39,126 nt of DNA. Origin: Saccoglossus kowalevskii (taxonomy: Eukaryota; Hemichordata; Enteropneusta; Harrimaniidae). A program made the translations under genes and the position numbers. Below are positions 5,006 to 38,745 of the stretch, one piece after another. Below the pieces are notes generated by a model. That model ran no database searches. It was not told the origin of the DNA and was given only the letters and a program-made list of their open reading frames with translations. Position 1 is the stretch's first letter. Every line of letters starts with the position of its first letter. Location: contig NW_003153267.1 of NCBI RefSeq assembly GCF_000003605.2, positions 46,382 through 85,507 of the forward strand. Direction: 5' to 3'.

Positions 5006-5129
5006 AAACCATGGTATAAACAAAAGGACACTGTCATTCTGGCTACTATATTTGGAGCTGCAGTATTACTTGCCGCAACTTTGGTTGTCCTAGTAATCGT
5101 GCGTGTTGCTCGATACAAAGGTGAAATAG
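5006..5129 (+). CDS. Gene A transmembrane-anchor exon
   Basis: Acceptor AAACAG at 5000-5005, donor G|GTAATA at 5129/5130; phase 0 in, phase 1 out. It begins KPWYKQKDT and is followed by about 25 hydrophobic residues from VILATIFGAAVLL to VLVIV, then RVARYKGEI. It matches the Gene B exon at 34334, which has the same KPWY start, segment length, phases and ending (GEI versus SEI), so it is a real exon and not chance. With the kringles downstream this is a signal anchor. Charges are positive on both sides, so the topology (N-terminus inside) is inferred from the extracellular, disulfide-bonded kringles. The exon has no in-frame ATG, so at least one upstream exon is missing from the model. Confidence 0.8.
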
Positions 5130-5647
5130 GTAATAAACCATTTCTATACTTCGACCCCTCTAGCGAAGAAGTGATTACTTGATGTAAAAGGATGTCAGCA
5201 CCAATATGTGTTTTATCTGTATATTTTAAAAATGTTTTTTTAGCATTTTTTTGCACAAATTTACAACTAAAGGATATACATTCAAATCACTGTACTAACA
5301 TCCTTCTATGTCGTTTTGACGCCATGAACGTGTTGCCGCTAGAGGGTGCAATTTATAAGATGCGTGTATTGATTCGCATGAGCAAAAAGAAGCAGTATAC
5401 AAATATTCTCGAAAATTCTTCTTTCAATAAGTTATCCACTGGTATTATTATAATATAACTGCAACGGAGTTATCTTGAAAGTGAATTATTTTGTTGATTT
5501 ATTTCAAAATAGTTTTGAATAGTGTTGTGGATATCAAGACCGTTTCAACTTAAATTAAGTGTAAGATTTACGTGACTGATCACGCCATGCTGTTAGCGTC
5601 TGATAACATGTTAACTGCGGATCGTTTCAACTGAAACTAAATTTCAG

Positions 5648-5917
5648 ATTCAGACTTACGTGAGTGCTATGAAGAGATAGATGGTAGTGATTATAGAGGA
5701 TTTGTAAACATCACGGTGAGTGGCAAACAATGTGAAGTGTGGACGTCAATTATGCCACACGTGAACATGTCGATCTCAGATGACTATTCGTTCACGGGGA
5801 TTGCTGATCACAATTACTGTCGAAACCCCGATGGCAAAACAACGGCATGGTGTTATACTGTTGATTCCGATGTTCGTTGGGAAGACTGTGACATTGGAGA
5901 TCCTCAGGATGAATGCA
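5648..5917 (+). CDS. Gene A kringle domain 1 (A1)
   Basis: A single exon encodes one complete kringle, phase 1 at both ends (TTTCAG at 5642-5647; A|GTAAGT at 5917/5918). All six cysteines are present: ECYEE, KQCEVW, NYCRNPD, AWCYT, EDCDIG and DEC. The GSDYRG motif follows the first Cys. The usual YPxxGLGDHNYC loop reads FTGIADHNYC. In plasminogen kringle-4 numbering the acidic pair D55/D57 is D then K, so one arm of the lysine-binding site is lost, although the Trp before the fifth Cys (RWEDC) remains. It pairs with Gene B kringle B1: both have ECYEE after the anchor and the same position in the gene. Confidence 0.95.
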
Positions 5918-6121
5918 GTAAGTAATAACATGCGCCACCTAGAATATATTTAAACAATTTTCGGTTCCAAATGCTTGAAATTTTAACAATTATTCATTTT
6001 TTTATTTATACTTATGCTAGTGTAATTTATAGTAGTTTAATATTTAGTAATATTATTGAAAATTATATTATTAGATAATTGATGTTCATATATATTCTCA
6101 TACAATTAATTATCTCTACAG

Positions 6122-6193
6122 AAAACGTCACTGTTTCTCCCAGTTTGTCAACCGGGGAAACAACCGAATATACAACAATCGATTATGTCACAG
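6122..6193 (+). CDS. Gene A Thr/Ser-rich linker exon 1
   Basis: 72 nt, phase 1 in and out (CTACAG acceptor; ACAG|GTTTGT donor). Encodes NVTVSPSLSTGETTEYTTID and then YVT, with an N-glycosylation sequon (NVT) and dense Thr/Ser. Joins kringle A1 through a Lys codon (A|AA). Length is a multiple of three, as for every linker here. Confidence 0.8.
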
Positions 6194-8109: not shown

Positions 8110-8154
8110 ATGGAGTAACACCATCTGTTACACCCACATTTATGACCACAAGAG
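8110..8154 (+). CDS. Gene A Thr-rich linker exon 2
   Basis: 45 nt between TACTACAG and AGAG|GTATGA, phase 1 both sides. Encodes D then GVTPSVTPTFMTTR. A short Pro/Thr spacer of the same type and phase as its neighbours; supported by splice sites, phase and composition only. Confidence 0.72.
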
Positions 8155-8901: not shown

Positions 8902-8946
8902 AAGAATCAATATCGACCACTGTACCTGTACTGAATGCAACATCAG
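8902..8946 (+). CDS. Gene A Thr/Ser-rich linker exon 3
   Basis: 45 nt between TTACAG and TCAG|GTATGG, phase 1 both sides. Encodes E then ESISTTVPVLNATS, which carries an NAT sequon. It lies 154 bp upstream of kringle A2 and joins it through a Gly codon (G|GA). Confidence 0.75.
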
Positions 8947-9100: not shown

Positions 9101-9376
9101 GATATTCAGAATGCTTTGAAAAATACGGTGGTAGTGACTATCGTGGAACCATTGATATGACAAAGACAGGGGATGTATGTCTACCGTGGACGACAATGTT
9201 GTTCGAGCACCAATTTACAGAAACCAACTATCCAAATGCCGGCCTTGGAAACCACAGTTACTGTCGTAACCCAAATAAAAGAATGATGCCGTGGTGTTTC
9301 ATCACAACTCATCACTTTCACTCAACTGACCCTCAATGGCGTTATTGCGATGTTGGTTATCCTCAATTACAATGTG
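9101..9376 (+). CDS. Gene A kringle domain 2 (A2)
   Basis: Complete kringle in one exon, phase 1 both sides (TTTCAG; G|GTAAAA). Cysteines: ECFEK, DVCLPW, SYCRNP, PWCF, RYCDV and LQC. GSDYRG and YPNAGLGNHSYC are well kept. Two departures: the acidic pair of the lysine-binding site is replaced (NPNKRMM instead of NPDxD), and the loop between the fourth and fifth Cys is a few residues longer than usual with several His (TTHHFHSTDPQW). This kringle is therefore unlikely to bind lysine in the plasminogen manner. Confidence 0.95.
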
Positions 9377-9581: not shown

Positions 9582-9668
9582 GTGATTCTACTTCAACGGT
9601 TCAGCAAAAGATTCCATCAAGTGTAAAGACCACATCTACACCCATTGAAAGTACATTATCAATACCAG
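9582..9668 (+). CDS. Gene A Thr/Ser-rich linker exon 4
   Basis: 87 nt, phase 1 both sides (ATTTAG; CCAG|GTACCA). Encodes GDSTSTVQQKIPSSVKTTS and then TPIESTLSIP. Follows kringle A2 directly. Good splice sites and mucin-like composition. Confidence 0.78.
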
Positions 9669-11388
9669 GTACCATTTAACATAAACTGAACGCTCTGTGA
9701 AAAGTACTGCTTTTTAGATACGATACTGCATTTTCCGGCGTTTTGCTTATGTTACATGACTGCCCAGACATTATATGTATACACTAATTGTTGCTGTTGA
9801 CATTTTATCTATATTCCATTATGTTGAGATAATTGTATTTGATTATTTCTATTAATTGAGTATGTTTTTCTTGATCGAAAAAAAAAATTACTTTTTTAAT
9901 TTTATAAGTAGGATTGATATTACTATTTCTGAAAACTAGTATGCTGATTGGAACCTGGAGGATACCATATAAAACATTGATATAACATTTTATTTTTATT
10001 ACATTGATTGTCTGAGAACCGATCANNNNNNNNNNNNNNNNNNNNNNNNNNNNNNNNNNNNNNNNNNNNNNNNNNNNNNNNNNNNNNNNNNNNNNNNNNN
10101 NNNNNNNNNNNNNNNNNNNNNNNNNNNNNNNNNNNNNNNNNNNNNNNNNNNNNNNNNNNNNNNNNNNNNNNNNNNNNNNNNNNNNNNNNNNNNNNNNNNN
10201 NNNNNNACATTGATTGTCTGAGAACCGATCAATATCCAATTATAGTATAAAAAACACATCCCTATTCAGAACGGGGAAGGGATGGACAAAAGGCAATTTG
10301 GCATATCAGTACATTCGCGAAAATGCCAACGTTACAATGTCATCCACATTATGTGTTTGGTTTTTTTCAATACAAAAACAACCCCCCCCCCAAAAAAAAA
10401 GAAGTTTGTCACAGCACATCGAAAGTGAATCATCAGAAGTACCGATGACTTACGTGGGTCGAGTAAGGCATCTATATAGATGGGATGTAGTTTAAGTTAT
10501 TATCAGTTTTTAGTGCATTAGAGTAGTGTACCAAGATCCGTGAATCTACTTTTACATAATGGCAGTAGAAATATTTGTTGTGTTCAGTACACTCACAGAC
10601 TTCATTTACACTCAGTGACAAAAAGAAGATTCTCTGCATATGAGAGTTCTTATTTCCTCGACTCAATACCTTAACATGTATATGGTGCGCTTTTCTCTGT
10701 CCCTGGTTTTAGATATGAGCAAAATAGTGACAAAGAGAGTGCCTTTACATTTAGTCTGATTTTGTTAACTGTGGTACAAACACATTTTCAACATCGTCGC
10801 CAAATGTTTTGCACTTTGAGCTAACAATATATTTTGAGGATTCGCACTTGGCTTCCAGTCTTTAACCACATGGGAACTTAAATTGTTGTCCATCGTGCCC
10901 CGTGAGTTCATTTTTTCCAGACGTAATTGCTCATATGAGTAGGTTTAGTCCCTGTTCATGCATTCTTTGATATTTTTGCTTATAGAAAAAAAAATATTTA
11001 TTTTGTCCTGCATGCAAAATACAGCTTTGCAAAAAAGACGTGGCTAACTTTTGAAAGGATTAGTCCATGTCCATGCATTCCAAGACTTTTGTGCTTGTTT
11101 GTTGAACAGGCCTTTCTGGCGATGGTTGATGTTATTGGCTTGATGTTTGCCCTCAGTGGTTACAAATGTTATTACTACTGTTATTACAAACTGTCCAACT
11201 GCCAGGATTAAGTACAATCTGGATAATATAAACATCATGTTAATGCCACATTGTTTGGGTTTATCAGGAATTGGAATATACATATTATGATCCCATCAGA
11301 TTGTTCATCTTTATTTTTAAGCAATCATCGACTTACCTGCATTTAGCTGCTACTCAAATATAAGTTTATTGTTTATCTTATACCTAAG
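9669..11388. other. Gene A intron containing the N gap
   Basis: No exon found on either side of the gap. A run of C then A lies at 10382-10400. The last part, from about 11260, is similar to about 19045-19210 upstream of the TATH2 exon, for example around ATTATGATCCCATCAGATTG versus ATCATGATCGTATCAAATTG. It is the left margin of the TATH/STIG duplication unit. Confidence 0.6.
10026..10206. other. Assembly gap (181 N) bounded by the same 25 bases on both sides
   Basis: The 25 bases at 10001-10025 (starting ACATTGATTGTCTG) recur exactly at 10207-10231 on the other side of the Ns. Either the two contig ends overlap and the gap is not real, or a tandem repeat defeated assembly. The gap lies in the intron between linker exon 4 and the TATH1 exon; no exon is known to be missing. 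Confidence 0.95.
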
Positions 11389-11448
11389 GCACTGCAACAC
11401 ATCCAGTAACACAATCATTTGTCACAGCTAATGCTGTTACACCTCAAG
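11389..11448 (+). CDS. Gene A linker exon 'TATH1' (first copy of a duplicated exon)
   Basis: 60 nt, phase 1 both sides (CCTAAG acceptor; CAAG|GTGAGA donor). Encodes G then TATHPVTQSFVTANAVTPQ. The exon at 19211 is its duplicate (TATHSVTKSFVTAA), and the flanking introns are alignable by eye, including a shared segment around CGCGGTATTCCGC. This copy is 15 nt longer at its 3' end. Confidence 0.82.
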
Positions 11449-11631
11449 GTGAGAGTTGTATTTATTGATAATTCTCAGTCATCTCGCGGTATTCCGCCAC
11501 CCGTTATGACATTAATATTATTATTGTTCTACGTGCACTGATATACTGAGATTTGTTATGATAATATAGATGTAAAAATCATGGTATCTGCTGACTTGTT
11601 TTTATTCAGCAAAATATGGACACATTCCATA

Positions 11632-11992
11632 TAGGCGAGCGGTAGGGACCGGATTTGTTTTAATGCACCCCCGCTACACAGTAGCAAATCATACACCATT
11701 TTGAAGCATATTTCATTAGCTTTCAGAAAAGGTATGTTGTGGTAATGTAACTTGGTGCAATTTTTTGGAAAAACAGGGGTATATAAACATATACTATTTC
11801 ACTTTTTGTAATATTGTTTTCCAACTTTTTGTACAATGTATGCATGTTATTACTAATGATTTTCAAATATGTAGCTCTCATTTGTACTTATACTACATAC
11901 ATTCATCTGGGATGACATTGGTTATACTATTCCAACAAATTATGTTGATTTTTCACAAATTAGCGTATATTAGCATAAATTAAATATGGCTG
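11632..11992 (+). repeat. Left terminal inverted repeat of the DNA transposon
   Basis: Begins TAGGCGAGCGGT. Matches the right end inverted at several places at the same offset: the terminal 12 bp, a block around TAGCTTTCAGAAA near 11716, and GCATAAATTAAATATGGCTG at 11973-11992. Similarity is patchy between these blocks, suggesting an old insertion. Confidence 0.85.
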
Positions 11993-13019
11993 CCAATGTA
12001 TGTGGTTTTAGATGCATTACAAATTGTTTTGGGGTTACCACAATCAATGTTACAATTTTATATTGCAGTTTTTAATGGATTATGAGAATTGTTATGAGAA
12101 TTTTCAGTGACTGTTTTATATATTTATAGGAACGAGAAGATAAATATTTATTATTGCTGTAGCTGTATTGTATTTTTACAAGTCGGCGAGTGACCTTTCT
12201 GCACCAGTCTGAACAAAATGAAGTGATTTGCATGGTATATTATTTAACTTTTGATGTAATTGCATTTATTTATTTATAACTTAATAATAATAAGCATTAT
12301 TAAATTTTGTAATTGTTTACAGGTATACTCAATATAAATATTAATTCATTTTTTTTGACGTTTGAATTTCTTTGTTAATATTTTAATCATTTTTTTTTAT
12401 TTCCGAATTCTAGTTTAAAATAACTTAATTATTATATATATATGATTCATAAGAGAAGTAATTTGTTGTTATAATCAGGAGTTATTTAATCAAAATACCA
12501 TATGAATATTTAAAATGTATATTGATTTTATAAGTGATGTCACTTTTAATTGTAATTATTCAATACATTTATGTTTAACAAGTGACAACTTAAATTTAAC
12601 TTTAAGGAACAGGACGATAATCATAAACACTGAACCGTGTATCTTCATCGAATGATAACACGATTATTGAATAGTCTTTCAACCGAATCGATGAGTAACT
12701 AACTGGTATTCAGTAGATCAAACTCATTGCCAAGCAAATCGCTGTACAATCATTAAATAATTCTGTTTTGATCGTATATTCAATAATTGCATTTTGTAAT
12801 GACATATCGATATGCTGTTATGGTTGTATATTATATGTAAGATAGTATATTGATGCAGATGATGAGCATAATAACATATTTGATTTTATTTACCTCATAG
12901 AATTATTTGGTACGATCTGACTGGTAGTTGTATTGAGTAAGTGGTGATACAATGTTAGCACTACTAGTACAGTAGCCACATCAGATAAACACGAAGCAGT
13001 CGTATTATTTAACATAAAC

Positions 13020-16000
13020 ATGGATTCTCAACTAAGTCCATTAAAACTAAAAGTTCCTGCAAAGCGGAAAAGGGTTTTGATTAACTATAATAAATTTATC
13101 CTCTGCCAAACTCTAACCAAGGAGAAACTCAGTGAAGCACGTGAGGCTGGGAAAAGTACTTTGTTCAGGACATCTGAAGGAAGAAATGATGATGTTCTTG
13201 AGCGTCTCAGAGGAGTGGAAGGAACAATTGCAATGTACATCAGAGATATGTTGCTCTTCTAAGTAAACCAGTGATCAACCGGAGAATACAGTGTTGTACA
13301 ATAGAAGCTGTTATGCAAGCTACACGAGTAAAACTAATGTTGTCTACTGCAAAGCAGGAATGTCACGTCAGGACGCATCTCCAATTGATGCTTATAGTAC
13401 GCGCAAAAAAGAAAGATAGCTGCAACAGCATCCAATAAAGATGTATATATTATTTGCCTCAAGAAGTCATACAAACAAGATACAATATTATACAAAGTTG
13501 CAACAAAGGACAGAGAATTCAACCCAAGACAAGCTGCAAATGCAAGGGGTGATAGGGATATGTTACTTCGCATTGGTCCAGAAGATGGTCCTGATCTTGA
13601 TGATGGTCAGGATATATTATATGATGAGGCATTCAAAAAGTTGACCAACGAAATAAAAGATGATCTTCTTAAACATGGTAAAGCTTTTCAACTTTCCATG
13701 TTATTAGAGATGTATAAAGCGAATTTGCCAGAAAGTGTAACAAAGGAAAGTTATCGGTCAGACAAGCTGGAAAAGAGATTGGTGAAATATTATGGAGATA
13801 AAATTACTATTCAAAAAGAATATGGTCAGGGAAAGTCTAATTTGATATTTAGCAGTTCAGTTTCTCTTTGTGGTGCCATCAGAGTTACTTCCGAATTAAA
13901 ATAGAGATTGAAAGACAAAGAGCAAACATATCAGCCTATATATGAGACAAATGTATACAATATTCTCCATGAAGATGTCGGAGTTATTCATCAAGTCCTT
14001 AGCAGCATAACACGTTCAAATGAATATCCTGCTTGAAGTAGGCTTACATGCATCAGAAGAATGTGTCCTAAAATCATCAGATGATGCCTGAAAGTACCTA
14101 TCTTTATCCGAATGTGCACATTTATGACATATGCTGCAGAGGAACAAATGGATAATAATAGTGATGTTTACATTCCGCCAGAAATCACACCTACAACACA
14201 AGGTGGTGCATTAATACATGAAGGAGATGACATGAATGCTGAAAAGATTGATGAAAAAAACAAACACTTTCCACTCTATGTCAAGGGTTATCTTCCAGAA
14301 GCAGAATGTCAACTCTACCAGCAACATTCCAAGCGTGGTGATAACAAATCACTTATTCTAACAGAAGCAGGAAACTCATTGACTGAATGCAGATACCAAC
14401 ACATCGTCCTGTACCTCCAAGATTAGAAAACCTTTGGAAGTGCTGAAATCATGTCCAGTAATGGTAAGTTGATTATTAACAAATTATCTGTATAATTGTT
14501 AAATTAATATGATGGATATAGTGTATTGCCGAATTAAAAACCAACATTTATATAATTATATTTTTTTCGATAAATTATCATATTTCAGAAAAGGGAACAT
14601 TGTTGTTCATGATATTTCATGGGTATTTCTGAGAATGAGGAGTATTGCCTTTATATGCCGATGTACCAATGACCCAGGAAATCCCATTCTGGACTGGATA
14701 CAATACGCAGCTATCGGAGACCAGTGATACCTAAACAGCAGTGGCCTATGCACCAATAATAGATGCCAAGCCAGCAGATCAGATATGTCTAAAGTGTTTA
14801 CAACCATGGTCAAATGCAAAGAAATGACTAACCACGTGGGAATAGTAGTAACAATTCAAACCATGGATCAGCAACTCTTTGCCATTGCTCAACATATTAA
14901 ATGGGCAGAATCTCGTCTTTTCCATCATACAGTACTACGACTTGGTGGTTTTCACACAACAAGTACTTCATGGCAACACTAGGTAAGCTTCGGCTCACAG
15001 ATTCTGGGTTGTATGCAGCAGGCACAATCACGCAGATGCTTGAGGGAAAACAGAATAATCGTGCTGTTCGTGGAATCACTTTAGCATTTGAGGCTTTAAT
15101 GGCACACTATATTCAGGGTTTTGTTAAGTGGTGTCCAACTGCGCTTCCAACTGTAATATGTGAAAAACTAGAAACTGTACAATTTGAAGTTTCTACTGGC
15201 ATGTGATGTGAAGAATCTGTCACTGGCTTGGCTTCCAAATTTGAAAAGGTATGAAGAATGGGGCTCTACATAATCTCCTACCTTCAAGTTATGGGTAATG
15301 TTTCTTCATGCAGTATCAACATTGTTGATGAACATACGAGTTGAAAGAGAAGGTGATTGGTCCATGCACCTACAAGTGGATCGCATGCTGCCATATTTCT
15401 TTGCTTGTGACAGAGTTAACTATTCGAGATGGACACCGATTTACCTACTGAGCATGATAGAAATACCTGATAACATCAAGACCTCATTTGAAAATGGATA
15501 GTTTTCAGTGCGACAAATAGCATGTAGATTCAATGGCATCTGGTCAGACCTGGGCACAGAGAAAGCTATAATCCGTGATGCTAAAGGAAACAGTGGAAAA
15601 ATTGGACACACCAGAAAGAAGCCTGCTTTGGTTCGCTGGACCCTGACTCGTCACTTGCTAAGTGATTAGCCACTTATCTGACAGCATGATAAGCCCATTT
15701 GAGGTAGATAATTATCCTGAAAATGTCCTCATCAATATAGCCACAGGACTGCATGCAAGTGTTGATGTACAAGCATAATTACTAAATGCCACTGACAAAG
15801 GAGAAGAGAAATGTGCAACATTTATCCATTCATCACTCTCATCAACATCCAAGAAACAATATATGATGCCATCCCGAGGTATTGCCTTCTCACATGCTCT
15901 GATATGACCAAAATGATAAAGATCGCCTGCAAAGGAAAACAATATATATGTGAAAATAAATTCAGAGTTAATATTCCGTAAAGCTCTGTTCATAGCAAAG

Positions 16001-18583: not shown

Positions 18584-18665
18584 ATATACATGACGACAGT
18601 CCATTTGTCAACAACACTGAACAATTTAAACATGCTTAATTCGATACTCGCGTCGTCCCTTTCAG

Positions 18666-18746
18666 GACAATCGACAATTGGAGTAGCAACATACCAAACA
18701 ACAGAAACACCAATGAAAACTGTATCTACTTTTGATACAACTGAAG
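18666..18746 (+). CDS. Gene A linker exon 'STIG1', with a shifted acceptor
   Basis: 81 nt, phase 1 both sides (CTTTCAG at 18659-18665; GAAG|GTGAGT). Encodes G then QSTIGVATYQTTETPMKTVS and TFDTTE. It is the first of four copies of the same exon (others at 19498, 20669 and 22721, each 99 nt). By alignment with STIG2, the ancestral acceptor TTAG has become TAC, so it is lost. A new TTTCAG exists exactly 18 nt further in, so the exon lost six codons but kept phase. The transposon ends 82 bp upstream. Confidence 0.85.
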
Positions 18747-19210: not shown

Positions 19211-19255
19211 GCACAGCAACACATTCAGTAACAAAATCATTCGTCACTGCTGCTG
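19211..19255 (+). CDS. Gene A linker exon 'TATH2'
   Basis: 45 nt, phase 1 both sides (CTTAAG; GCTG|GTGAGT). Encodes G then TATHSVTKSFVTAA. Duplicate of the exon at 11389. The following intron is alignable with that of TATH1 but has no transposon. Confidence 0.82.
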
Positions 19256-19497: not shown

Positions 19498-19596
19498 GCA
19501 CATCGTCCCTGCAACAACAATCGACAATTGGAGTGGCAACATACCAAGCAACAGAATCACCAATTACAATTCTTTCTACTTTTGATATAACTCAGG
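19498..19596 (+). CDS. Gene A linker exon 'STIG2'
   Basis: 99 nt, phase 1 both sides (CCTTAG; CAGG|GTGTGT). Encodes G then TSSLQQQSTIGVATYQATES and PITILSTFDITQ. The donor is GTGTGT where the other copies have GTGAGT or GTGCGT, so it may be a weaker site. The downstream intron remains closely similar to that of STIG1 for well over 100 bp. Confidence 0.85.
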
Positions 19597-20668: not shown

Positions 20669-20767
20669 GTACATTGTCTATGCCACGACACTCAACAATT
20701 GGAGCTACAACTTCTCAAGTAACAGAAACACCAGTTACAACTTTACCTACTGTTGGTATAAATCAAG
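20669..20767 (+). CDS. Gene A linker exon 'STIG3'
   Basis: 99 nt, phase 1 both sides (GATTAG; CAAG|GTGCGT). Encodes G then TLSMPRHSTIGATTSQVTET and PVTTLPTVGINQ. Closer to STIG4 than to STIG1/2: both have TLS, P-R and QVTET. Its last base joins kringle A3 through a Glu codon (G|AG). Confidence 0.87.
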
Positions 20768-21492: not shown

Positions 21493-21756
21493 AGGAATTT
21501 ACAGAATGTTATGAAGATCCGAAAGGCCGTGACTATCGTGGAATGATCAACATTTCAGAAAATGGTTATGACTGCCTTTATTGGAATGAGCTTGATGACC
21601 GTTACTGGGTAACCCCGGAAAAATTCCCAGATACTGGTCTCGGTGATCATAATTACTGCAGGAACCCAGATAACGACCTCACTCCATGGTGTTATGTTGA
21701 TAACAGTTCTATTGGATGGGATTTCTGTGATGTGTCAAACCCCCTCGAAGATTGCA
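21493..21756 (+). CDS. Gene A kringle domain 3 (A3), lysine-binding-type
   Basis: Complete kringle in one exon, phase 1 both sides (TTCTAG; A|GTATGT). Cysteines: ECYED, YDCLYW, NYCRNPD, PWCY, DFCDV and EDC. It carries GRDYRG and DTGLGDHNYC. NPDNDLTPWCY gives Asp at both D55 and D57 (plasminogen kringle-4 numbering), W62 and an aromatic at 64, and GWDFC gives the Trp at 72. This is the most complete lysine-binding site in Gene A. Ligand binding is a prediction from family knowledge. Confidence 0.95.
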
Positions 21757-21957: not shown

Positions 21958-22017
21958 GTGTGACCACAGTTGCTCCAAGTGTAATTACACCAATTTCGGC
22001 TACTACGATTGTTTCAG
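21958..22017 (+). CDS. Gene A Thr-rich linker exon after kringle A3
   Basis: 60 nt, phase 1 both sides (TATCAG; TCAG|GTATGG). Encodes S then VTTVAPSVITPISATTIVS. Joined to A3 through A|GT. Confidence 0.8.
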
Positions 22018-22720: not shown

Positions 22721-22819
22721 GCACATTGTCCGTTCCACGACAATCAACAATTGGAGCGTCATCTTACCAAGTAACAGAAACATCAGTTACAACGTCACCT
22801 GCTGTTGATACAAATCAGG
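22721..22819 (+). CDS. Gene A linker exon 'STIG4'
   Basis: 99 nt, phase 1 both sides (CGTTAG; CAGG|GTGAGT). Encodes G then TLSVPRQSTIGASSYQVTET and SVTTSPAVDTNQ. Fourth copy of the STIG exon, separated from the others by kringle A3, which shows that the duplicated block spans or has moved across the kringle exon. Confidence 0.87.
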
Positions 22820-23854: not shown

Positions 23855-23935
23855 ATATAAGCACCGGAGATGTTTTCACAGAATATGCTACGACGGAAGC
23901 AATTGAAAAAACGCTTAGACCTTCGTTTGAGCCAG
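23855..23935 (+). CDS. Gene A linker exon 'DIS'
   Basis: 81 nt, phase 1 both sides (TTTCAG; CCAG|GTGAGT). Encodes D then ISTGDVFTEYATTEAIEKTL and RPSFEP. Less Thr-rich than its neighbours but with good splice sites and the right phase. Confidence 0.78.
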
Positions 23936-24886: not shown

Positions 24887-24970
24887 AGTTAACTTCCACA
24901 TCTGAAACAACACAAGCTGCGACCACAGACTTAAAAACCTCAAATGAATATGTAACTATAATGGAAAAAG
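24887..24970 (+). CDS. Gene A linker exon 'ELTS1'
   Basis: 84 nt, phase 1 both sides (CTTTAG; AAAG|GTAAAC). Encodes E then LTSTSETTQAATTDLKTSNE and YVTIMEK. Derived from the 138-bp nested duplication; it appears to replace the dead copy just upstream. Confidence 0.82.
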
Positions 24971-25084: not shown

Positions 25085-25168
25085 ATATAACTTCGGCAGC
25101 TGAAACTACATCATATGGTACAACAGACTCAGAAATAACAACTAAATATATGACCACATACACAACAG
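25085..25168 (+). CDS. Gene A linker exon 'DITS1'
   Basis: 84 nt, phase 1 both sides (TTTTAG; ACAG|GTAAAC). Encodes D then ITSAAETTSYGTTDSEITTK and YMTTYTT. Pairs with ELTS1; its duplicate is at 26154. Confidence 0.83.
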
Positions 25169-25966: not shown

Positions 25967-26044
25967 AGTTAACGTCCATATCTGAAACAACAAAAGCTGG
26001 GACCACATACTCCAGAAATGAATTTGCAACCACAATCGAAAAAG
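25967..26044 (+). CDS. Gene A linker exon 'ELTS2'
   Basis: 78 nt, phase 1 both sides (ATTTAG; AAAG|GTAAAC). Encodes E then LTSISETTKAGTTYSRNEFA and TTIEK. Two codons shorter than ELTS1. Confidence 0.82.
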
Positions 26045-26153: not shown

Positions 26154-26234
26154 ATTTAACTTCGACAGATGAAATTACATCATATACAACATACTCAGAC
26201 CATACAACTAAACATATGACCTCATACAAAACAG
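26154..26234 (+). CDS. Gene A linker exon 'DITS2'
   Basis: 81 nt, phase 1 both sides (TTTCAG; ACAG|GTGAAG). Encodes D then LTSTDEITSYTTYSDHTTKH and MTSYKT. Second copy of DITS; one codon shorter than DITS1. Confidence 0.83.
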
Positions 26235-26640: not shown

Positions 26641-27065
26641 AATAATGCGATATTTTCTATTCTAAGAGTTAAGCAGATGACTACATCACATTTCATCACA
26701 TAATTCGAAACTGCAACTTAATATGTATTTATATACAACAGAGAAGGTGTCATATTGATACTTAGGATATAGGATATGCAAACATATGCGCAATCATCGT
26801 TGTTATATAATACTACTATGGGCTGTTATCATTAGAGAAGATTAATATAATACATATATTATCATATCTGATACGCATAATAGCAAAGCAAGACCGTTTC
26901 ATCAAGCGAACATATTTTTAAATAATACAACACCATATGTTAGTATATTATATATCTATATTACACATATTATAAAAACACAAGATATCCTAATTTTTAC
27001 GTTTTTTGGCATTGTAATATATTAAACTAGGATGAGTTGATTTTTTGTTTAAACTTTATTTTCAG

Positions 27066-27149
27066 AACAAAGCTCGGAGATTGGCACTACAGACTATTTT
27101 ACCACAGAATCCAAAATAACAACAGCTAGCACTGCTTCACCTGGACCAG
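27066..27149 (+). CDS. Gene A linker exon 'EQS', last before the lectin domain
   Basis: 84 nt, phase 1 both sides (TTTCAG; CCAG|GTAAAT). Encodes E then QSSEIGTTDYFTTESKITTA and STASPGP. Forms the stalk just before the C-type lectin domain. Confidence 0.82.
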
Positions 27150-27628
27150 GTAAATATACAAATACTCTTGTCAGTGCTTAGAGAAATTAAACCTGCAATA
27201 GTACCGTGACATAACACCCTTTAATAGTGTAAATATTTGAAAGCGAACTTTCTTATATACTATTTTGTATATACTATATGTCTGTGGCATACCCACTCAG
27301 AATGGGGGTCAACCACTGTCCATATTCAGCTTAAAGTAAGATTTGAACTAATTCGTACCAGTGTGTTTTGATGATCAACAATGATAATAATATGATGATA
27401 ATATAGCGCTTTAGAGATTGTCAACACTGGACACAAATTAACTTATAATACTTGGGTGGCATATCAGTGATATAATTGGCAAAGAAAAAATGGATTGTCC
27501 TCACGACAATTTATTTGTTCACCATCACCACCATATCCCGTCGTGTAATGTAATTGTGGATGAATCGCTATGTAACCGAATCTTTAACTTCAGTGTATTG
27601 TAATACGATGCTTTTTATTCTGCCTCAG

Positions 27629-27938
27629 ATCACCCTTATATCGATCATGGCTGTAGTCGTTATCATGTGTACACTAATAAGCTAAATTGGTTTGATTCAA
27701 AAATCCAATGCGAAAGAAATGATGGTGCGCTTGCCTCATTGTACTTAGAAGAAATATTCATAGCTGTTCGTTCATATATTATCAATGGTAACTTCAATCG
27801 TGGTGTAAAGGGTTATTGGATCGGGCTTACTGATAATAATAGTGACGGTCTATTCGAATGGCTGAATGACGAACCGCTTGGATGGACGAGTTGGTCATCA
27901 AGGAATCCAAACAATAGAGGAAACTGCGTACAGTTACG
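27629..27938 (+). CDS. Gene A C-type lectin domain, exon 1
   Basis: 310 nt, phase 1 in, phase 2 out (CCTCAG; ACG|GTGAGT). Begins DHPYIDHGCSRYHV. Lectin hallmarks in order: W-F-x(4)-IQC helix (LNWFDSKIQCERNDG), WIGLTDN, the SDGLFEWLNDEPLGWTSW loop, and NPN-N-RGNCVQL. In place of the sugar-specificity triplet EPN or QPD there is NPN, and the usual acidic residue after it is missing, so calcium and sugar binding cannot be assumed. The domain finishes in the exon at 28273. Confidence 0.93.
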
Positions 27939-28272
27939 GTGAGTTTTGTTTATTATCAATCAGTTGTGGTCGCAATAGCTATTAAATTAACTTCCCCAAA
28001 AATTGTTTTTATTGTTGCAACTGAATGTAATCTCAGAAATGTATATGTCTTGTCTCGATCCTTGAATTAATAGATAATCATATAATTTCTTCTGTTGTGC
28101 GAATCTCATGCGCATTTAATTTATAAATTTTGAATTTTCAAAACATGTCTTACTTATCACCTTATAGAGAGACCAAACGCCAATAACACTCGATACGACC
28201 CCCCCCCAAAAAAACAAACAAACAAACATTAAATGACACACACTTTTCAAAGCATTTTAAATTTTTCGACAG

Positions 28273-28338
28273 GAAACGTAAACATTATGATTGGGACGAC
28301 TTTAAATGTAATGCTGAAAGAGGATACATATGCCAAAC
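28273..28338 (+). CDS. Gene A C-type lectin domain, exon 2
   Basis: 66 nt, phase 2 in and out (CGACAG; AAC|GTAAGT). Encodes KRKHYDWDDFKCNAERGYIC after the split Arg codon, then Q and a split Thr. DWDDFKC is the equivalent of the WND-x(2)-C motif (Asn replaced by Asp) and GYIC supplies the last Cys. With exon 1 the domain is complete and has the two canonical disulfides plus one extra N-terminal Cys (HGC). Confidence 0.9.
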
Positions 28339-29069
28339 GTAAGTTTAAACTTCCCAAATCAATAATTATTAAAGTAAGCAAAGGCATTACGATTTATGTA
28401 CGCGTGTCAAAAAATGGGTCTATTATTATTTTTATCAATCCTCGAAGTATGTCATTATAAAATACTAGTACCCAAAAGTAATAGTCAATGTCCAGGTTAT
28501 TTGCAAAAATCCAAGTTTAAACTTTGTCCGGCGTAAGCAGAAGATGTCCCCAGGCACCATGTTTATCAATATTCTTAACATTTAGCAGATCTGTAACAAT
28601 CCCCACTAAATGTTCATATTAAAATACTTTGTATATTATTAATTCGTAATAAATTTAATTTCAAGGTTCGAATGCGTGATTTTATGCCGCAGTCCTGGCG
28701 CGTTTAAACCCTTGGGATATTTTACTATAATAGGATGTGTCTACATCGCGCGTTAAAATTTGCATATAACATTAGCGCGTAACTAAGATTGTGATAAAGA
28801 AAAGAGTGGTATAAAAAAAGATCAGTGATTACTTGAAATCGATTCCAGGAAGGCGGGGGGGGGGTAAAAGAAAAGTTATATAACATTTTATTATTTAATA
28901 ATTTATTAAAATACATAAGTATTACGTACTAGCAGTGGCCTAAAACGCCAGGGTAGATTTGTCGAAGAAAAGATCAATGGTTCGCCCCGGGTAACAGTAG
29001 CGATCGTACAAACGAAACATGTCGACAGACTTAATACGTATGAACTTTCTTTTCTGTCTATTATTACAG
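28339..29069. other. Gene A last intron
   Basis: No exon or RNA seen. Contains a short G-run at 28855-28863. The region 28680-29010 is somewhat richer in CG dinucleotides than its surroundings. Confidence 0.5.
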
Positions 29070-29094
29070 TGACTTGTCCAACTGCGCCGAATAG
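29070..29094 (+). CDS. Gene A terminal exon (probable)
   Basis: Behind the acceptor ATTACAG at 29063-29069. The incoming AC joins T to give Thr, then DLSNCAE and stop TAG at 29092-29094. The extra Cys (SNC) could pair with the extra N-terminal Cys of the lectin domain, as in long-form C-type lectins (inference). Another frame of the same exon reads TCPTAPNRYEEIYK before a stop, but its phase does not match the incoming phase 2. Phase arithmetic makes the whole chain divisible by three. Confidence 0.6.
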
Positions 29095-29470
29095 ATATGA
29101 AGAAATTTACAAATAATAGAACCAGTATTTGTAGTTTTGATGTATCACACGTGATTTTAGCAAGTCAACCAAACCAACATATTAATTGAATGATGAAGCT
29201 TATTACAAATTACAGGGCGTTATGCAATATAGATATAGTAGAGATATAATACACTAAAACAGGATAAATATTATTATTTGCTGTATATGTAACCTTTATT
29301 AGTTCACCTATTTCAGTATGTAGGATTGCTTCTTTTTAATATTGTTATCAACAATACCATTGATATTCTGTTGATTCATGGCGTATAAGGATTCAGTTTA
29401 TGTAAAATATTTATCTATGCTAGCATAGGTACGATCGCCGAACTTATTTACGTTCTTTCTGTGCATGTGC

Positions 29471-29476
29471 AATAAA
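29471..29476 (+). terminator. Candidate polyadenylation signal AATAAA of Gene A
   Basis: A canonical AATAAA lies about 375 bp after the stop; I saw no earlier one in the 3' region. The hexamer is common in AT-rich DNA, so this is only a candidate. Confidence 0.4.
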
Positions 29477-32400
29477 CAGTTTGGAAAAAAAACATGTCGT
29501 TGGCACCGAAGATAGTATAATAACGTTGTTCTCTGCCTTTTTATTCAAATATACATGTTTTCCTATTAATCAAACAACTTATGTTAATATAGTCACATCC
29601 GTTTGAAAGGCTTTGTTGATCAGTGGGTGACTTTGTATGCTGTTTGGCAAAAATGCAAAAAGTATACATCATAACTACATTCATTTTGAACATACATATT
29701 GCAATAATTGATGTAAAATGCATATTGGTTAAACAGTGTTATTAAACGGCTATGTTTATTCAATTTAATAATCGGTGTATGCATGTTCATTCTCTCGCGC
29801 AACATAGAGAGATTGGATTGAATTTCTTGAACTAGGGTTGGCCATTTATTTTCATCTCTGATTTCCAATCTAAGTATATACATTACTAGATTAAGAATAT
29901 TACAGTATGCAGGACAAGAGTAAATGTCATCGTTCAATTCAATACGATGTATTTCATCTAGTTTTTAATAATCTTTCAAACAGAATAAATGCACTAGCAG
30001 AAATATTATTCACGGTTTCGATTGTTCGCATGTACTACAGTAATATAAAAAAAACGATTTTCCACTTATACATGTTTCAGTTCGAAGATAAATAAATAGC
30101 ATTACTAAATTCTACTTTCACAATCTATTTTATTAGTTTATTTATCTGAAATACACACTACAGTACACGTGCCATCAATAGTGGTGTTTACTTACCAATT
30201 TTATAATACATTACAACATAGGCATACAAGATATCTCATAAGTGACTAGAAATTATTATTAAACTTATTATTAACTTATTATAAACAGACACTGTTGGTC
30301 GAGACTATCGTAATATATTTTTTATTACGCATATTCGTTTGACAGCTTGTAAAGTTTAAAAACTAATACAGTGATCGTGATTATCGAACGCTTATTCATA
30401 GACGTAAATCATAAACAACGATTAAGTAATATATTGTTTCCAAGAACAAAAGTTATTGTTGAACCACCACTATATTTATGGTTCTACGTGGAAATATTTA
30501 GAGTAAATTGCCACTTTTCTGCGTTGTCAAATTTTGAAATGACGTCTCAAATATATTCGATTTTATACAACACAGCTTATATCTGAAAAAAACAGATACA
30601 TTCAAAAAAATATCAATAAGAATCATTTTAAAAAAAAAGTGTGTGAAACAGCTAATGTAACAGTTCTGATAAACAGTTATGTTTGCAATGTCGAATCACA
30701 TTTTCGGTACTTCACTTACTTCTTATAGAAAATAATTACACTGATTTATTATACTGAGCTGCAAATATAAATATATATATATGATACATATTTTTATAAT
30801 ATGGCGTCACATTTAGAAAAATGTTAATGCTAAATAGCATATGTTGTCAGAACAATTATAATATGGTCGGAAATATTTTCGAATTGTAAAATGACTCACT
30901 GTATAAACTGCGTTTGAGAAGGATACGGCCACTCATTAGCGATGACGTCACACTCTTTGGAAAATTGAGGGACTATATGAAGGTATTTAATAAAATTTTA
31001 ATATTGGTAATAATTATAGAATGTTTGAATATTTCCAAGATTTACGGCGTATTTGCTGTATATATTATTTATGTATTCGTATATATAAAATTCAATTTAC
31101 GATATGGTATTCACAATTGTAAGATGTTCGAAAATGGTAAAATGAGGAATACACTGTCATCTTTCTTCGTACATGATAAACGTTCAGATAATATTGTTAG
31201 CACAATTTGCGAGAGGAGAGAGGATCATCCTATACAAGCCCAATGTGAATTGTCACATATAAATCTCCACCTGGTTACCATTTGTCCAAGTACTGCCAAA
31301 CTAGCATTAGTAATGAGCGTGGATGAGTATCAAGTATTATATATTATTATACATCTTACTGTCTTAGTGCATATATATATATAGCAGCTTTTACTGAACA
31401 CATATGACATGCGCAATGGTTAGTATCCATTTTCATTCAGAAATGAAATGTTGTGTCATTATGCTGTCTGCCGGAAATGTACACATTTAATGCACGTATA
31501 ATGTACACAGCGAACATTGTGCATTGTGCGAACATGCATTTCAAAAGTTAAGGTCACTACTACTTTTTAACATCAAATATTCATAATTCTAATATATGCA
31601 TTGAAAACGCAAGACTGGTTAATGCGTTTTCTCATACTTTGTTAAAACATATTGTACGTATATTAGGGAATGTTCGTGTGCAAAGAGTCGTTAGGCTCAT
31701 AAGGTGTACAGTTTCTCTGGAGCTCTCAAATCTTTGCATTGGATTAAACCTCCTAACAAGCTTTTATTGGTTTGTTTAGTTTATATTTATCAAACAAGAA
31801 TCTCGAAATCATAGAAATGCCCGGAGCATGATATTCATCTTCGTATTGTGTTTAACCGGTAGTGAATTCTAACGAGCGCGCTATGCAGAAACAATATGTT
31901 TCTCTGAAACTATGTGTAAGTTCACGCAGCGGGGGTAAATGATGTCTGGTGTTGAAAATATTGTGCCGTGTTATTGACACAACCGTTGAGAAAGTATATT
32001 GCAGCGATAGTCTGCACGTTACTAAAAAGAACACTCCCTCTAATCCAGACAACGTCACTCACTAGTCCGCCATTTTGCATGCACGTAGTACATGCATGTA
32101 CTGGTCACCGAAGGGAAACTCATTTGTAAGCAGGATAAGGTAAGTCAGATCGTTTCAATGATTATCTTTGACATACACAGAAAAAACAGTTATATACACA
32201 TAAACTAATAGTGGCAACTGATAAACAGCTGTATTGAACACGTCATGCGGAAATTGTAATCTAGTAGAAGCCATTGTACTAAGACTAAATAGGATAGGAG
32301 CGAGAGATCAAATTTAATGGCGCAGAAATAAAACGTCGAGTATTATATGTCGGCAATGATGCTTTATCATGTTAATGATAACAAATACGCTCATTATGAG

Positions 32401-33422: not shown

Positions 33423-33454
33423 ACATTAACGCATACTCTCACATGGCAGGGTCG
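33423..33454 (+). CDS. Gene B candidate start exon
   Basis: A 32-nt exon between TTTGCAG (acceptor ending 33422) and TCG|GTAAGT. It has an ATG at 33443 giving MAGS in phase 0, which fits the phase-0 acceptor of the anchor exon at 34334. The protein would then start MAGSAKPWYYQSSNF, a short cytoplasmic tail as expected for a signal-anchored protein. Support is splice sites and phase only. No equivalent was found for Gene A. Confidence 0.45.
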
Positions 33455-34333: not shown

Positions 34334-34466
34334 GCAAAACCCTGGTACTACCAATCCAGTAATTTTGGTGTTATTGGAATATGCATTGGGTCTGTTCTGC
34401 TCGCTTGTGCTTTAACGATATTTATATTGATACTGGTATTTACAGACAAAGATGTGTCTGAAATAG
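34334..34466 (+). CDS. Gene B transmembrane-anchor exon
   Basis: 133 nt, phase 0 in, phase 1 out (AACAAACAG; ATAG|GTACGT). Encodes AKPWYYQSSNFG, then a hydrophobic run VIGICIGSVLLACALTIFIL plus ILVF, then TDKDVSEI. Acidic residues dominate after the segment and a Lys precedes it, which fits N-terminus-in, type II topology by the positive-inside rule. Homologous to the Gene A exon at 5006. Confidence 0.82.
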
Positions 34467-34565: not shown

Positions 34566-34841
34566 AGCAAGTTGCCAATTTTACCGAGTGTTATGAAGAA
34601 GCGGATGGAAAAGATTACAGAGGTGTTGTTAACACGACGATGAATGGAGAAGAATGTGCAATTTGGACTTCTGACAACACGCACCAGCACGGGAAAACGC
34701 CCGAAAATTACCCGGATTCAGGACTCGGAGACCACAATTACTGCCGGAATCCAGACGGAGATATGGGGGCATGGTGTTACACAACGAATCTCGACATTCC
34801 TTGGGAGTTCTGTAACATTGGGCCTCCCCGAGAAGATTGTA
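34566..34841 (+). CDS. Gene B kringle domain 1 (B1), lysine-binding-type
   Basis: 276 nt, phase 1 both sides (CACCAG; A|GTAAGC). Begins EQVANFTECYEEADGKDYRG. Six cysteines: ECYEE, EECAIW, NYCRNPD, AWCY, EFCNIG and EDC. YPDSGLGDHNYC is canonical. NPDGDMGAWCY keeps Asp at D55 and D57 and W62, and PWEFC keeps the Trp at 72 (plasminogen kringle-4 numbering), so the lysine-binding site looks complete. An N-glycosylation sequon (NFT) lies just before the first Cys. Counterpart of A1, which has lost D57. Confidence 0.96.
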
Positions 34842-35607: not shown

Positions 35608-35670
35608 GTGCAACGACAATTGAACCGAACGAGACAGCAATATTAACGACACCATATCGCACATTTTCTG
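35608..35670 (+). CDS. Gene B Thr-rich linker exon 1
   Basis: 63 nt, phase 1 both sides (ATACAG; TCTG|GTGAGT). Encodes S then ATTIEPNETAILTTPYRTFS, with an NET sequon. Confidence 0.8.
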
Positions 35671-35955: not shown

Positions 35956-36012
35956 GTGAAACAACATCATTGTCAGACGTGAATGTTAACACATCATCTC
36001 GAACAAATGCAG
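35956..36012 (+). CDS. Gene B Thr/Ser-rich linker exon 2
   Basis: 57 nt, phase 1 both sides (CTCACAG; GCAG|GTTAGA). Encodes G then ETTSLSDVNVNTSSRTNA, with an NTS sequon. Confidence 0.78.
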
Positions 36013-36247: not shown

Positions 36248-36343
36248 CAGAATATACAATTTCGCCAAGGATGTTTTCCACGAGAATGGGAGCCGTTGCC
36301 ACGACTGAAACTACAACGATGACAGCAACCACCTATTCACCCG
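36248..36343 (+). CDS. Gene B Thr-rich linker exon 3, with a tandem (NAGNAG) acceptor
   Basis: 96 nt from 36248, or 93 nt from 36251: the acceptor is CACAGCAG, so either AG can be used, and the protein reads A-E or just E at the junction. Encodes EYTISPRMFSTRMGAVATTE then TTTMTATTYSP. Donor CCCG|GTATGT. Phase 1 both sides with either acceptor. Confidence 0.82.
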
Positions 36344-36441: not shown

Positions 36442-36702
36442 AACATGAGTGTTACACACGTGCGGACGGAAGTGATTATCGCGGACTAGTCCATGTAACG
36501 TCCATGGGAATAAATTGTCAGAAATGGAGTTCTCAGAGTCCGCACCCGCACAACAGACTTCCTTACCTCTACCCAAATGCTGGTCTAGGAGATCATAATT
36601 ACTGCCGAAATCCCGACGGAGAAATGGGAGTATGGTGTTATACTATGAACCCTGATATTCGACGACAACAATGTTCAATTGGGAATTCTATGGAATCATG
36701 TG
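36442..36702 (+). CDS. Gene B kringle domain 2 (B2)
   Basis: 261 nt, phase 1 both sides (CAACAG; G|GTTAGT). Begins EHECYTRADGSDYRG. Cysteines: HECYT, INCQKW, NYCRNPD, VWCY, QQCSIG and ESC. YPNAGLGDHNYC and NPDGEMGVWCY are canonical, with Asp and Glu as the acidic pair. The Trp before the fifth Cys is replaced (IRRQQC), so lysine binding would be weakened. Closely similar to B3, for example QKW, PH(P/S)HN and GLGDHNYCRNPD. Confidence 0.96.
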
Positions 36703-37188
36703 GTTAGTTTTTATTGCGAACATAAATGCGGCCAGAAAACAACAAGAAATAAACAACAAATGCAACATGAAGATAAATACTAAAAATAAAACAATGTTTC
36801 TATAAATAATCTAATCAGTTAATCTGTATCAGAGCATGCACTTTATAATCCAGAAAACGTTTTTTTAACATGAACGTTACCATATGTTGATGTTCATTTA
36901 TTTACAGTACATTTACTATAAAATTGAATTTTGTAGTTAACGTCATATGCGTTAAAAGGGTGAATTAAAAATAAAGGTTGGATAAACCATCCTTCTGTGA
37001 ATATTTGTATTTTACAGGTTGTTGACCATATACAATATAATTTATTTTTGACATTGACGTTACTGTTATTTCTGAAATAGATGTAATATTTTCAAAATGA
37101 CAGTGTCAGTCCAATCGTTAACAACCTGAATATTTTCCATTTCTTGGTACTCCTGAGTGTAATTTATCCGTATATATTTTGTTCTCAG

Positions 37189-37452
37189 GGAACGGAGAAT
37201 GCTTCGTAGAAACTGATGGGAGTGATTATCGGGGGTTGATCCAGAAGACTGTTCATGGGAAATTGTGTCAGAAGTGGACTGCACAGTATCCCCATTCTCA
37301 CAACACGATCGATGTAAACTTCCCAAATTCTGGCCTGGGAGATCATAATTATTGTCGAAATCCTGATAGAGAAATTGGAGTTTGGTGTTATACCACTGAC
37401 GTGAATACACGCAAAGAGCTTTGTGACATTGGCGAACCAAGTGACACATGTG
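37189..37452 (+). CDS. Gene B kringle domain 3 (B3)
   Basis: 264 nt, phase 1 both sides (CTCAG; G|GTAGGT). Begins GNGECFVETDGSDYRG. Cysteines: ECFVE, KLCQKW, NYCRNPD, VWCY, ELCDIG and DTC. FPNSGLGDHNYC is canonical. The acidic pair is D then E (NPDREIG), and the Trp before the fifth Cys is Lys (RKELC). Its likeness to B2 and the direct joining of the two exons suggest a recent tandem duplication. Confidence 0.96.
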
Positions 37453-38577
37453 GTAGGTACAGACGCTGATATCAGACCCTTTCATGGAGTGTATAATGAA
37501 ATAATAATTACAAAACATTTCAAAAGGGATGACAATGGTATTGCGTGTGTATTGTATTGCAGAACCATTAGTTATGCCTGTTAATATGAGTAGATCATAC
37601 GCTAAAGGGTGAACTGGCCAACAGTTTAGATTACCAAAACACTATATGATACGAACATATAATTGTAACATCGTTTCAAACATAAACTAATGTTTGTGTG
37701 ACACAATGCGCTAATTAAAAAAATTGAAACAATACACATTTTGTCCTGATTGCAGGTATTTCCCCCAATAATAATGAAAGAAACAATGATCATTCGAAAT
37801 TAATGACGAAATGCGACAGTTCCGAACATTGAATGTCATTGTTGACTCTTCTGACTTTTTTGTATGTGCAAATTGCAAGTGCTATACTAGTGCTGACACT
37901 TAGCTTGGGACTACATGACATGGCTGTGCAATTTTAATGCTCTCTCCTGGCGACAACCAGTCTCGGTCGAATACAAGCACCTGCGGACCCTAACCAAGGC
38001 CCCCCAAAGTCGCATTAGTTTGGGAATGAATCTCGGCCAGTGGAATAGGCATTACCATTGAGTATGTGGCACACTCACCTAGGGTAAGGGGTGATGTTTT
38101 GATGTTCATCCTAATGTTAAGAAGATACCAGTACTTAATGCCATGAAATGAAATCAGCACCAAGCCACCGTTGAATTTCAATTTGACATATCTATAAATT
38201 CAAATTTTAGATCTATTTGTATCTGTTTGACAAGTTTACCACATGCGGGCGCCATTTCATTATTAGAAATTGATTGAACATTGAAACCGACAGAAGGCAT
38301 ATTATAATACACTCTGCAATACCGGCTTAGGTATTTTGTAAGAAATGTAATATGCATGACACGTTTATTTTGTAGGCAAAAACTACATAGGTATTAGGTA
38401 GCAAACGGCAACATTGCAACTATTTAATTTGCCGTTAGATAAAAAAATACACGAATATGTGTTATATTTATTTTGCAAATGCTAGTGAACCGCTTGCATG
38501 CAATATGTCAATTTTGGAAATAGTTTAAATAATGTTATTGTTGTTAAAGTTGTTATTACCTCCATTTTCCTCCTAAG
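37453..38577. other. Gene B intron with an unexplained, less AT-rich island
   Basis: 37896-38165 is compositionally unlike its surroundings and has no recognisable protein; it may be a SINE or other dispersed repeat. Behind an acceptor at 37755 a short open stretch (G then ISPNNNERNND...) reaches a stop with no donor before it. It could be an alternative terminal exon but more likely is chance. Confidence 0.45.
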
Positions 38578-38745
38578 GTACAACTATTCAACCGGGAATA
38601 ACTACAACTGCGATTCCATCAGATATAAGCACTGAGACCCAAGGGGAAGGAAGTACAACCATAATCCCGATGTTGAAAACATCCCCAATACCAAAAGAAA
38701 GTACCTCTGAAAGACCGAGCGACGTGGTAACAACTGCAAATGAAA
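38578..38745 (+). CDS. Gene B long Thr/Ser/Pro-rich linker exon
   Basis: 168 nt, phase 1 both sides (CCTAAG; A|GTAAGC). Encodes G then TTIQPGITTTAIPSDISTET, continuing through STTIIPMLKTSPIPKESTS to SDVVTTANE. It is the longest linker in the window and recalls Gene A linker exon 4 (PIESTLSIP versus PIPKEST). The gene continues after this exon. Confidence 0.85.

Follow-up and report, generated by a model that had tools for sequence, protein, structure and literature searches.

Gene models and domain architecture

The window analysed here, a 39,126-nucleotide stretch of the 572-Mb genome of Saccoglossus kowalevskii (positions 46382-85507 of contig NW_003153267.1, hereafter C4317; G+C content of the window approximately 33%), contains two adjoining genes on the forward strand, A and B, whose predicted products combine a hydrophobic, anchor-like segment with kringle domains strung on Thr/Ser-rich linkers and, in gene A, with a C-terminal C-type lectin domain (CTLD). 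Both exon chains were rebuilt from splice sites and reading-frame phases and are predicted models; their anatomy, taken by itself, is regarded as very probable (Table 1). A run of N (C4317:34554-46381) stops just 5' of the window, and 27,048 N (C4317:85508-112555) follow directly at its 3' side, by which gene B is cut off.

The gene A chain comprises 24 exons between positions 5006 and 29094 (2619 nt), i.e. 873 codons including the TAG stop at 29092-29094, with compatible phases along all 24 exons and no internal stop. The same number of codons and the lack of junction stops had been reported in a first-pass annotation of this DNA and were reproduced; the total is not wholly independent of the earlier count, because our first chain (23 exons, 846 codons) lacked the linker exon 23855-23935, which was searched for since 846 and 873 codons disagreed. 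All three kringle and 17 linker exons of the gene are of phase 1-1, as the first-pass annotation had proposed for the linkers. The kringle exons at 5648 and 21493 have weak acceptors, which were picked by eye, by phase and by likeness to the paralogue. The linkers amount to 428 residues in total (26.6% Thr, 13.1% Ser).

The spliced models were compared with Pfam at its curated cut-offs, and the list was inspected up to an E-value of 0.1. Gene A matched Kringle (PF00051) in three stretches (E 6.7e-56) and Lectin_C (PF00059) once (E 2.9e-14; 54.1 bits versus a cut-off of 22.6; profile positions 2-107 of 107), with no other family to E 0.1; gene B matched Kringle in three stretches (E 2.9e-68). 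The kringle and lectin scores exceed the cut-offs by a wide margin. The rebuilt chain and Pfam thus agree with the order claimed earlier for gene A (anchor, kringles on Thr/Ser-rich linkers, C-terminal CTLD), and the claim that a protease domain is missing likewise stands for both models, that of gene B being cut off by the gap. In gene B, a tiny start exon and the anchor exon are followed by a kringle, three linkers, two kringles, a further linker and the assembly gap; the visible part is without a CTLD.

Linker exons were filtered in the window by phase (1-1), length (at least 12 residues) and composition (at least 30% Thr+Ser), with the opposite strand serving as chance control: 33 distinct acceptors were recovered on the forward strand and none on the reverse strand; looser site thresholds together with a 25% Thr+Ser limit gave eight rows on the latter. 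When the scan was extended to five regions (C4317 included; 223,094 known bases per strand), 114 linker candidates were counted in sense versus two in antisense orientation, at least one of the 114 (C4317:47755) being situated outside the genes. Anchor-like exons, defined by phase and hydrophobicity, numbered seven in sense and two in antisense orientation, and each of the seven (labelled A to F and Z) ends at most 0.6 kb upstream of a kringle. Their uncharged run spans 22-27 residues in six cases and 16 in the seventh (KD19 2.8-3.9).

Candidate start exons of only four codons were located 891 bases 5' of the anchor in gene B (MAGS) and 381 and 558 bases 5' of the anchors of related genes on contigs C1416 (MAVG) and C4566 (MTVK), respectively; each of them is weak on its own, since such exons occur at a background frequency of 0.226 per kb. 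If they are correct, the cytoplasmic tail would measure 9-14 residues in gene B and these two paralogues. For the other two C4317 genes, MEDNL and MVKD (or a bare M) are the start candidates; for a second C4566 gene, no start exon was found within 2.3 kb upstream.

Table 1. Exons of the gene A and gene B models (window positions; linker exons are Thr/Ser-rich)
Feature	Position	Strand	Remarks
Gene A membrane-anchor exon (KPWY..., phase 0-1)	5006..5129	+	CAG acceptor, GTAATA donor; 24-residue uncharged run, KD19 2.81
Gene A kringle 1 (phase 1-1)	5648..5917	+	Pfam Kringle; weak acceptor chosen by phase
Gene A linker exon 1	6122..6193	+	
Gene A linker exon 2	8110..8154	+	
Gene A linker exon 3	8902..8946	+	
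Gene A kringle 2	9101..9376	+	Pfam Kringle
Gene A linker exon 4	9582..9668	+	
Gene A linker exon 5	11389..11448	+	
Gene A linker exon 6	18666..18746	+	belongs to a set of four duplicated copies
Gene A linker exon 7	19211..19255	+	
Gene A linker exon 8	19498..19596	+	duplicated copy
Gene A linker exon 9	20669..20767	+	duplicated copy
Gene A kringle 3 (A_K3)	21493..21756	+	D55, D57, W62, Y64, W72 kept; weak acceptor, selected by phase
Gene A linker exon 10	21958..22017	+	
Gene A linker exon 11	22721..22819	+	duplicated copy
Gene A linker exon 12	23855..23935	+	second pass; acceptor 2.5, donor 9.3
Gene A linker exon 13	24887..24970	+	
Gene A linker exon 14	25085..25168	+	
Gene A linker exon 15	25967..26044	+	duplicate of 13
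Gene A linker exon 16	26154..26234	+	duplicate of 14
Gene A linker exon 17	27066..27149	+	
Gene A CTLD exon 1 (phase 1-2)	27629..27938	+	Pfam Lectin_C; PDB matches led by mannose-receptor family
Gene A CTLD exon 2 (phase 2-2)	28273..28338	+	
Gene A terminal exon (TDLSNCAE, TAG)	29070..29094	+	one additional Cys, like the exons that follow paralogue CTLDs
Gene B start exon, coding portion (MAGS), phase-0 donor	33443..33454	+	similar tiny exons at C1416 and C4566
Gene B membrane-anchor exon (AKPWY..., phase 0-1)	34334..34466	+	
Gene B kringle 1 (B_K1)	34566..34841	+	Pfam Kringle
Gene B linker exon 1	35608..35670	+	
Gene B linker exon 2	35956..36012	+	
Gene B linker exon 3	36248..36343	+	
Gene B kringle 2	36442..36702	+	Pfam Kringle
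Gene B kringle 3	37189..37452	+	Pfam Kringle
Gene B linker exon 4	38578..38745	+	gene end not reached before assembly gap

Related genes in the same genome

A kringle search of the genome returned 86 matches, 77 of them above the cut-off, on 34 contigs; with the gene A CTLD as query, 106 matches were obtained, and all eight paralogue pieces tested passed the Pfam cut-offs. C4317 itself carries two further anchor-kringle-linker genes (22404-29899 and 116457-117680), whose ends are not reached before a gap or the contig end. The two tandem copies described in the first-pass annotation do adjoin; they are, however, members of a larger family, of which at least four anchor-kringle genes lie on this contig.

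The most extended relative is an apparent giant gene at C1416:91847-162472 (forward strand), in which an anchor exon (VKPWY, with the KPWY motif in common with genes A and B), a kringle (92231), linkers, a gap, linkers, a second kringle (114223; with the histidine-rich insert HFHNNQYHHHH) and further linkers precede eight CTLDs (116244-162204); 67 linker candidates were found in its 61,846 known bases. On the reverse strand of C4566, a kringle (247630) is followed by linkers, a CTLD (242589), linkers and a second CTLD (237232), and another anchor-kringle gene lies further along this contig. C4566 also contains three near-alike kringle exons in tandem, separated by short linkers (126179-127477; synonymous divergence, Ks, 0.15-0.34), which points to a fairly recent duplication of kringle exons.

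After the last CTLD motif, a candidate phase-1 donor is present in 10/10 copies from C1416 and C4566, with modest scores (-0.6 to 2.9). Among the six exons that come next after CTLDs on C1416, all are Thr/Ser-rich by the linker scan and five have a Cys within the first two residues, the scanned acceptor of the sixth falling just past a Cys. Because phase-1 donors and Cys-bearing linker exons come next, the CTLDs of C1416 and C4566 appear to be internal. The corresponding position of gene A is instead followed by a short last exon that contains a Cys and the stop.

Since the order kringle-then-CTLD recurs on C1416 and C4566, it is unlikely that the kringle-stalk-CTLD order is an accident of a single model. 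Kringles were found on 34 contigs, CTLDs on 54 and both on six versus 0.38 expected, a test that counts all contigs as equal, in which 105 of the 106 CTLD matches were entered and which is taken as support only. The best relatives of the gene A CTLD lie on six contigs including its own, three of which hold kringles (two of five with its own excluded). C3647 and C2733 each bear kringle and CTLD matches on the contig, not within a shown gene; kringle clusters are also present on C4132, C4732 and others. Kringles and a CTLD share one strand at C4796:97550-133721 as well; no linker candidates were detected there on either strand, hence this locus, possibly a different type of kringle-CTLD gene, was not counted as the same architecture. 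At C4110:4320-36635, identically scoring CTLD matches recur about every 8 kb on both strands, a pattern of either recent tandem duplication or assembly artefact. For other families, the genome gave four C1q matches among 37 candidates scored, in contrast to the tandem-driven C1q expansion reported for bivalves (PMC6835236), and 51 SRCR matches; mollusc haemocyanin gave none, in a search whose control likewise had no match.

Duplication and selection

Nonsynonymous divergence (Ka) was lower than Ks in all nine unsaturated CTLD pairs (three further pairs were saturated; e.g. Ka/Ks values of 0.026/0.19 for D2/D3, 0.162/0.448 for G1/G2 and 0.346/1.168 for the gene A CTLD versus the C1416 copy D8) and in all seven unsaturated kringle pairs (two further saturated; F_K1/F_K2 0.060/0.259). 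Among the linker copies of gene A, Ka exceeded Ks in four of eight pairs; all eight comprise 18-27 synonymous sites, and six of them have members in common. The kringles and CTLDs are thus under purifying selection, and the linkers are close to neutral drift; in the stalk, the letters drift, with frame, phase and composition kept.

The duplicated linker-pair unit of gene A shows an identity of 0.85 in the exons, 0.83 in the intron between them and 0.66 upstream. Both kringle pairs compared between genes A and B are saturated at synonymous sites and, therefore, the two genes are considered an old pair. The earlier suggestion of a locus that is still expanding does not hold for the A/B pair; recent duplication is apparent at the level of single exons, for the linkers of gene A, the kringles of C4566 and the CTLDs of C1416. 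In the CTLD tree (midpoint root only), gene A joins the C1416 copies on a long branch and stands separate from C4566; in the kringle tree, one of 20 inner branches was starred and no conclusion was drawn from it.

Other features of the window

The first exon of a 2-oxoglutarate dioxygenase-like gene stands alone at positions 300-461 of the forward strand (MAAPTTPVIDFTAYG...; Pfam DIOX_N, E 6.2e-8; strong donor), with 10 other matches in the genome (the closest on C4144, 75%); further exons of this gene were not seen in window positions 1-5005. Being the sole candidate with a donor score above 3, it was considered as the start of gene A and rejected as a member of the dioxygenase family. The largest intron of gene A (11449-18665, 7.2 kb) contains broken open frames of a mobile-element-like protein (12948-17498, forward strand), one of which has 31 genome matches including its own copy; none of the frames tested matched a Pfam family above cut-off. 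Within the intron between gene A linkers 4 and 5, 181 N (10026-10206) are flanked at both edges by similar short translations, which suggests a tandem repeat at this gap. The Rfam scan of the window returned no family.

Comparison with known proteins

Type II C-type lectin receptors (DC-SIGN, asialoglycoprotein-receptor type) consist of a short tail, an anchor, an extended neck and a C-terminal CTLD. Apart from the start exon that was not found, gene A is alike in order, and DC-SIGN is among the PDB matches; it differs in that the neck is a Thr/Ser-rich stalk with kringles, and the C1416 relative in having eight CTLDs. The first-pass annotation had tied kringles mainly to secreted proteases and growth factors. 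Plasminogen, HGF and apolipoprotein(a), which are secreted and contain a protease or protease-like domain, agree with the window kringles in kringle sequence and partly in the lysine site; a trypsin domain, by contrast, is absent from both models (that of gene B being cut off by the gap). Kringles are, however, also known outside this group: Kremen and ROR, both among the PDB matches of the window kringles, are type I proteins that carry the kringle outside the membrane, in Kremen followed by WSC and CUB domains and in ROR accompanied by Ig, Frizzled and kinase domains, none of which was detected by Pfam in genes A and B (gene B being incomplete).

The best PDB matches of the gene A CTLD belong to the mannose receptor / DEC-205 / PLA2R family, with whole-chain E-values that add several domains. 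The mannose receptor family resembles the C1416 gene in its tandem CTLDs; according to the parts consulted of PMC12321717, its members are type I proteins with a Cys-rich and a fibronectin type II domain, neither of which was found by Pfam in genes A and B, where the anchor is N-terminal. For the Manila clam, the same source describes 13 'mannose receptor' genes (RpMR1-13) whose listed domains include kringle, CTLD (1-14 copies per protein), signal peptide and transmembrane region; as its main text, in the parts consulted, does not state which gene bears the kringle or in which order the domains stand, the likeness extends to the domain list only. In the flatworm Theama mediterranea, Tmed-krg1 is described, in the sections consulted of PMC9229212, as a membrane-bound protein with six kringles whose knock-down renders the animals non-adhesive; it is similar in presenting several extracellular kringles on a membrane-bound protein and different in having intracellular regions on both sides, and a CTLD is not reported in those sections. 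The earlier claim that no such family had been described was, in view of these clam and flatworm proteins, too strong. The order anchor-kringle-stalk-CTLD was not found in the literature search, most subscription journals being outside its coverage and sources being seen in part; the main text of a bivalve CTLD survey (PMC10140915) contains no occurrence of the word kringle, and PMC12549020 returned no passages. Given the clam domain list, the pairing of kringle and CTLD is not wholly unprecedented; the combination seen here seems hardly described.

Interpretation

Domain order, exon phases, duplication and selection are established at the level of sequence; type II topology, O-glycosylation and function are what we infer. 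The reading considered probable is that of a type II surface receptor for capture or adhesion, with a stalk that grows by exon duplication. A short cytoplasmic tail followed by an uncleaved signal-anchor would yield a type II membrane protein, and the kringles and CTLD, domains that require disulfides, should for this reason be extracellular. Outside the cell, the kringles would be threaded on a Thr/Ser-rich stalk that is presumably O-glycosylated; in gene A, this stalk is capped by the CTLD and, by its linkers, would hold that domain far from the cell. Partners that bear lysines or are polyanionic might be held by kringles near the membrane or along the stalk, whereas glycans on microbes, cells or secreted matrix might be captured by the CTLD. 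Such a protein would act by capture or adhesion or together with a partner rather than by signalling of its own, because the membrane runs are uncharged and no signalling motif was recognized by eye in the tails. Interchangeable phase 1-1 linkers could be duplicated, or any of them skipped in splicing, so that length and spacing of the stalk might vary with the frame intact.

Several observations weigh against this reading. Within window positions 1-5005, no ATG exon with a phase-0 donor was accepted for gene A; for gene B, an alternative start exon of 16 codons exists at 32092-32139, 2242 bases 5' of the anchor, with a donor score of 7.8 versus 4.9 for the MAGS exon. The positive-inside rule is passed by one of the seven anchors (B), the charges being equal in A, Z and C and more positive outside in D, E and F, with the count for A and F made without their start exon; the anchor alignment, with two of 44 columns invariant, is too weak for a genome search. 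On C1416, 17,891 N (from 94203) separate kringles 1 and 2, so that the anchor is not physically joined to the CTLDs; for two of its eight CTLDs (D2 and D6), a phase-2 exit candidate exists in addition, and the search behind the C1416 CTLDs for a phase 2-to-1 continuation, as suggested by the phase-2 exit of gene A, gave nothing convincing, the phase-1 exit fitting better. The small number of synonymous sites in the linker pairs and the members common to several pairs belong here as well.

The binding sites add to these points. In all six window kringles the six Cys columns are invariant and the PF00051 profile is passed. The lysine site, D55, D57, W62, F/Y64 and W72 of plasminogen K4, is kept as D55, D57, W62, Y64 and W72 in only two of the six, A_K3 and B_K1, and R71 is replaced in both; the structure prediction for A_K3, made with the six window kringles, reached a mean pLDDT of 54.9, too poor for a fold search. 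Calcium-dependent sugar-binding CTLDs contain an EPN or QPD triplet and a WND motif. The gene A CTLD has NPN and WDD instead; sugar binding by this domain is doubtful, since NPN stands where the C1416 copies have EPN (five of eight) or QPN (three of eight), and appears more likely for these relatives. Across the copies, the triplet occurs as EPN, QPN, QPS and NPN.

More tentatively, the family might represent a lineage-specific repertoire of giant modular surface receptors, built of a tiny start exon, a signal-anchor, kringles and mucin-like stalks that bear one to eight CTLDs with differing sugar triplets, grown mainly by duplication of symmetric exons (linker, kringle, CTLD) rather than of whole genes, and serving recognition, possibly with stalk and domain variants made by splicing.

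Alternatively, and less likely, the proteins could be structural components of the glycocalyx or of cell adhesion, devoid of a recognition role, with the domains for spacing or matrix binding. The dominance of the Thr/Ser stalk, the reduced lysine site in four of the six window kringles, the lack of the EPN triplet in the gene A CTLD and the requirement of the flatworm six-kringle membrane protein for adhesion (PMC9229212, in the sections consulted) are consistent with such a role; the purifying selection on kringles and CTLDs and not on the stalk, and a CTLD triplet that varies among copies, as expected for varied ligands, argue against it.

A cleaved signal peptide in place of the anchor, with secreted mucin-like adhesives or shed decoys as products, is judged rather improbable, even though all anchors but one fail the positive-inside rule and CTLDs are frequent in adhesive proteins of aquatic animals (PMC9229212, in the same sections). 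No small-residue cleavage site was recognized by eye 3' of the hydrophobic run in A or B. The uncharged runs of the anchors, apart from that of 16 residues, are longer than in usual signal peptides, and their KD19 values likewise speak for an anchor.

A division of gene A into two genes, one for an anchored kringle stalk and one, towards the 3' end, for the CTLD, would agree with the 7.2-kb intron and its mobile-element-like stretch, and with CTLD relatives on C1739 and C4174, contigs without a kringle match. It is nevertheless quite improbable: the phase 1-1 chain is unbroken, one duplicated linker kind (D1 copies, 18624-22898) occurs on both sides of kringle 3, no second anchor-like exon was detected inside gene A at the thresholds used, the kringle-then-CTLD order reappears on C1416 and C4566, and half of the contigs with the best CTLD relatives hold kringles, as given above. 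A decayed locus with pseudogene exons open by chance, to which the start exon not found for gene A and the two weak kringle acceptors might point, is highly improbable in view of 24 exons open in one compatible chain and of Ka below Ks in the family domains.

If the reading as a type II receptor for capture or adhesion is true, the kringle would have a place in a membrane-bound lectin context remote from blood clotting, and the C1416 gene would represent a receptor that grows by exon duplication, its domains under selection and its stalk drifting. The family would then offer a test case for the variation of recognition proteins in animals without antibodies, and for roles of kringles outside proteases.

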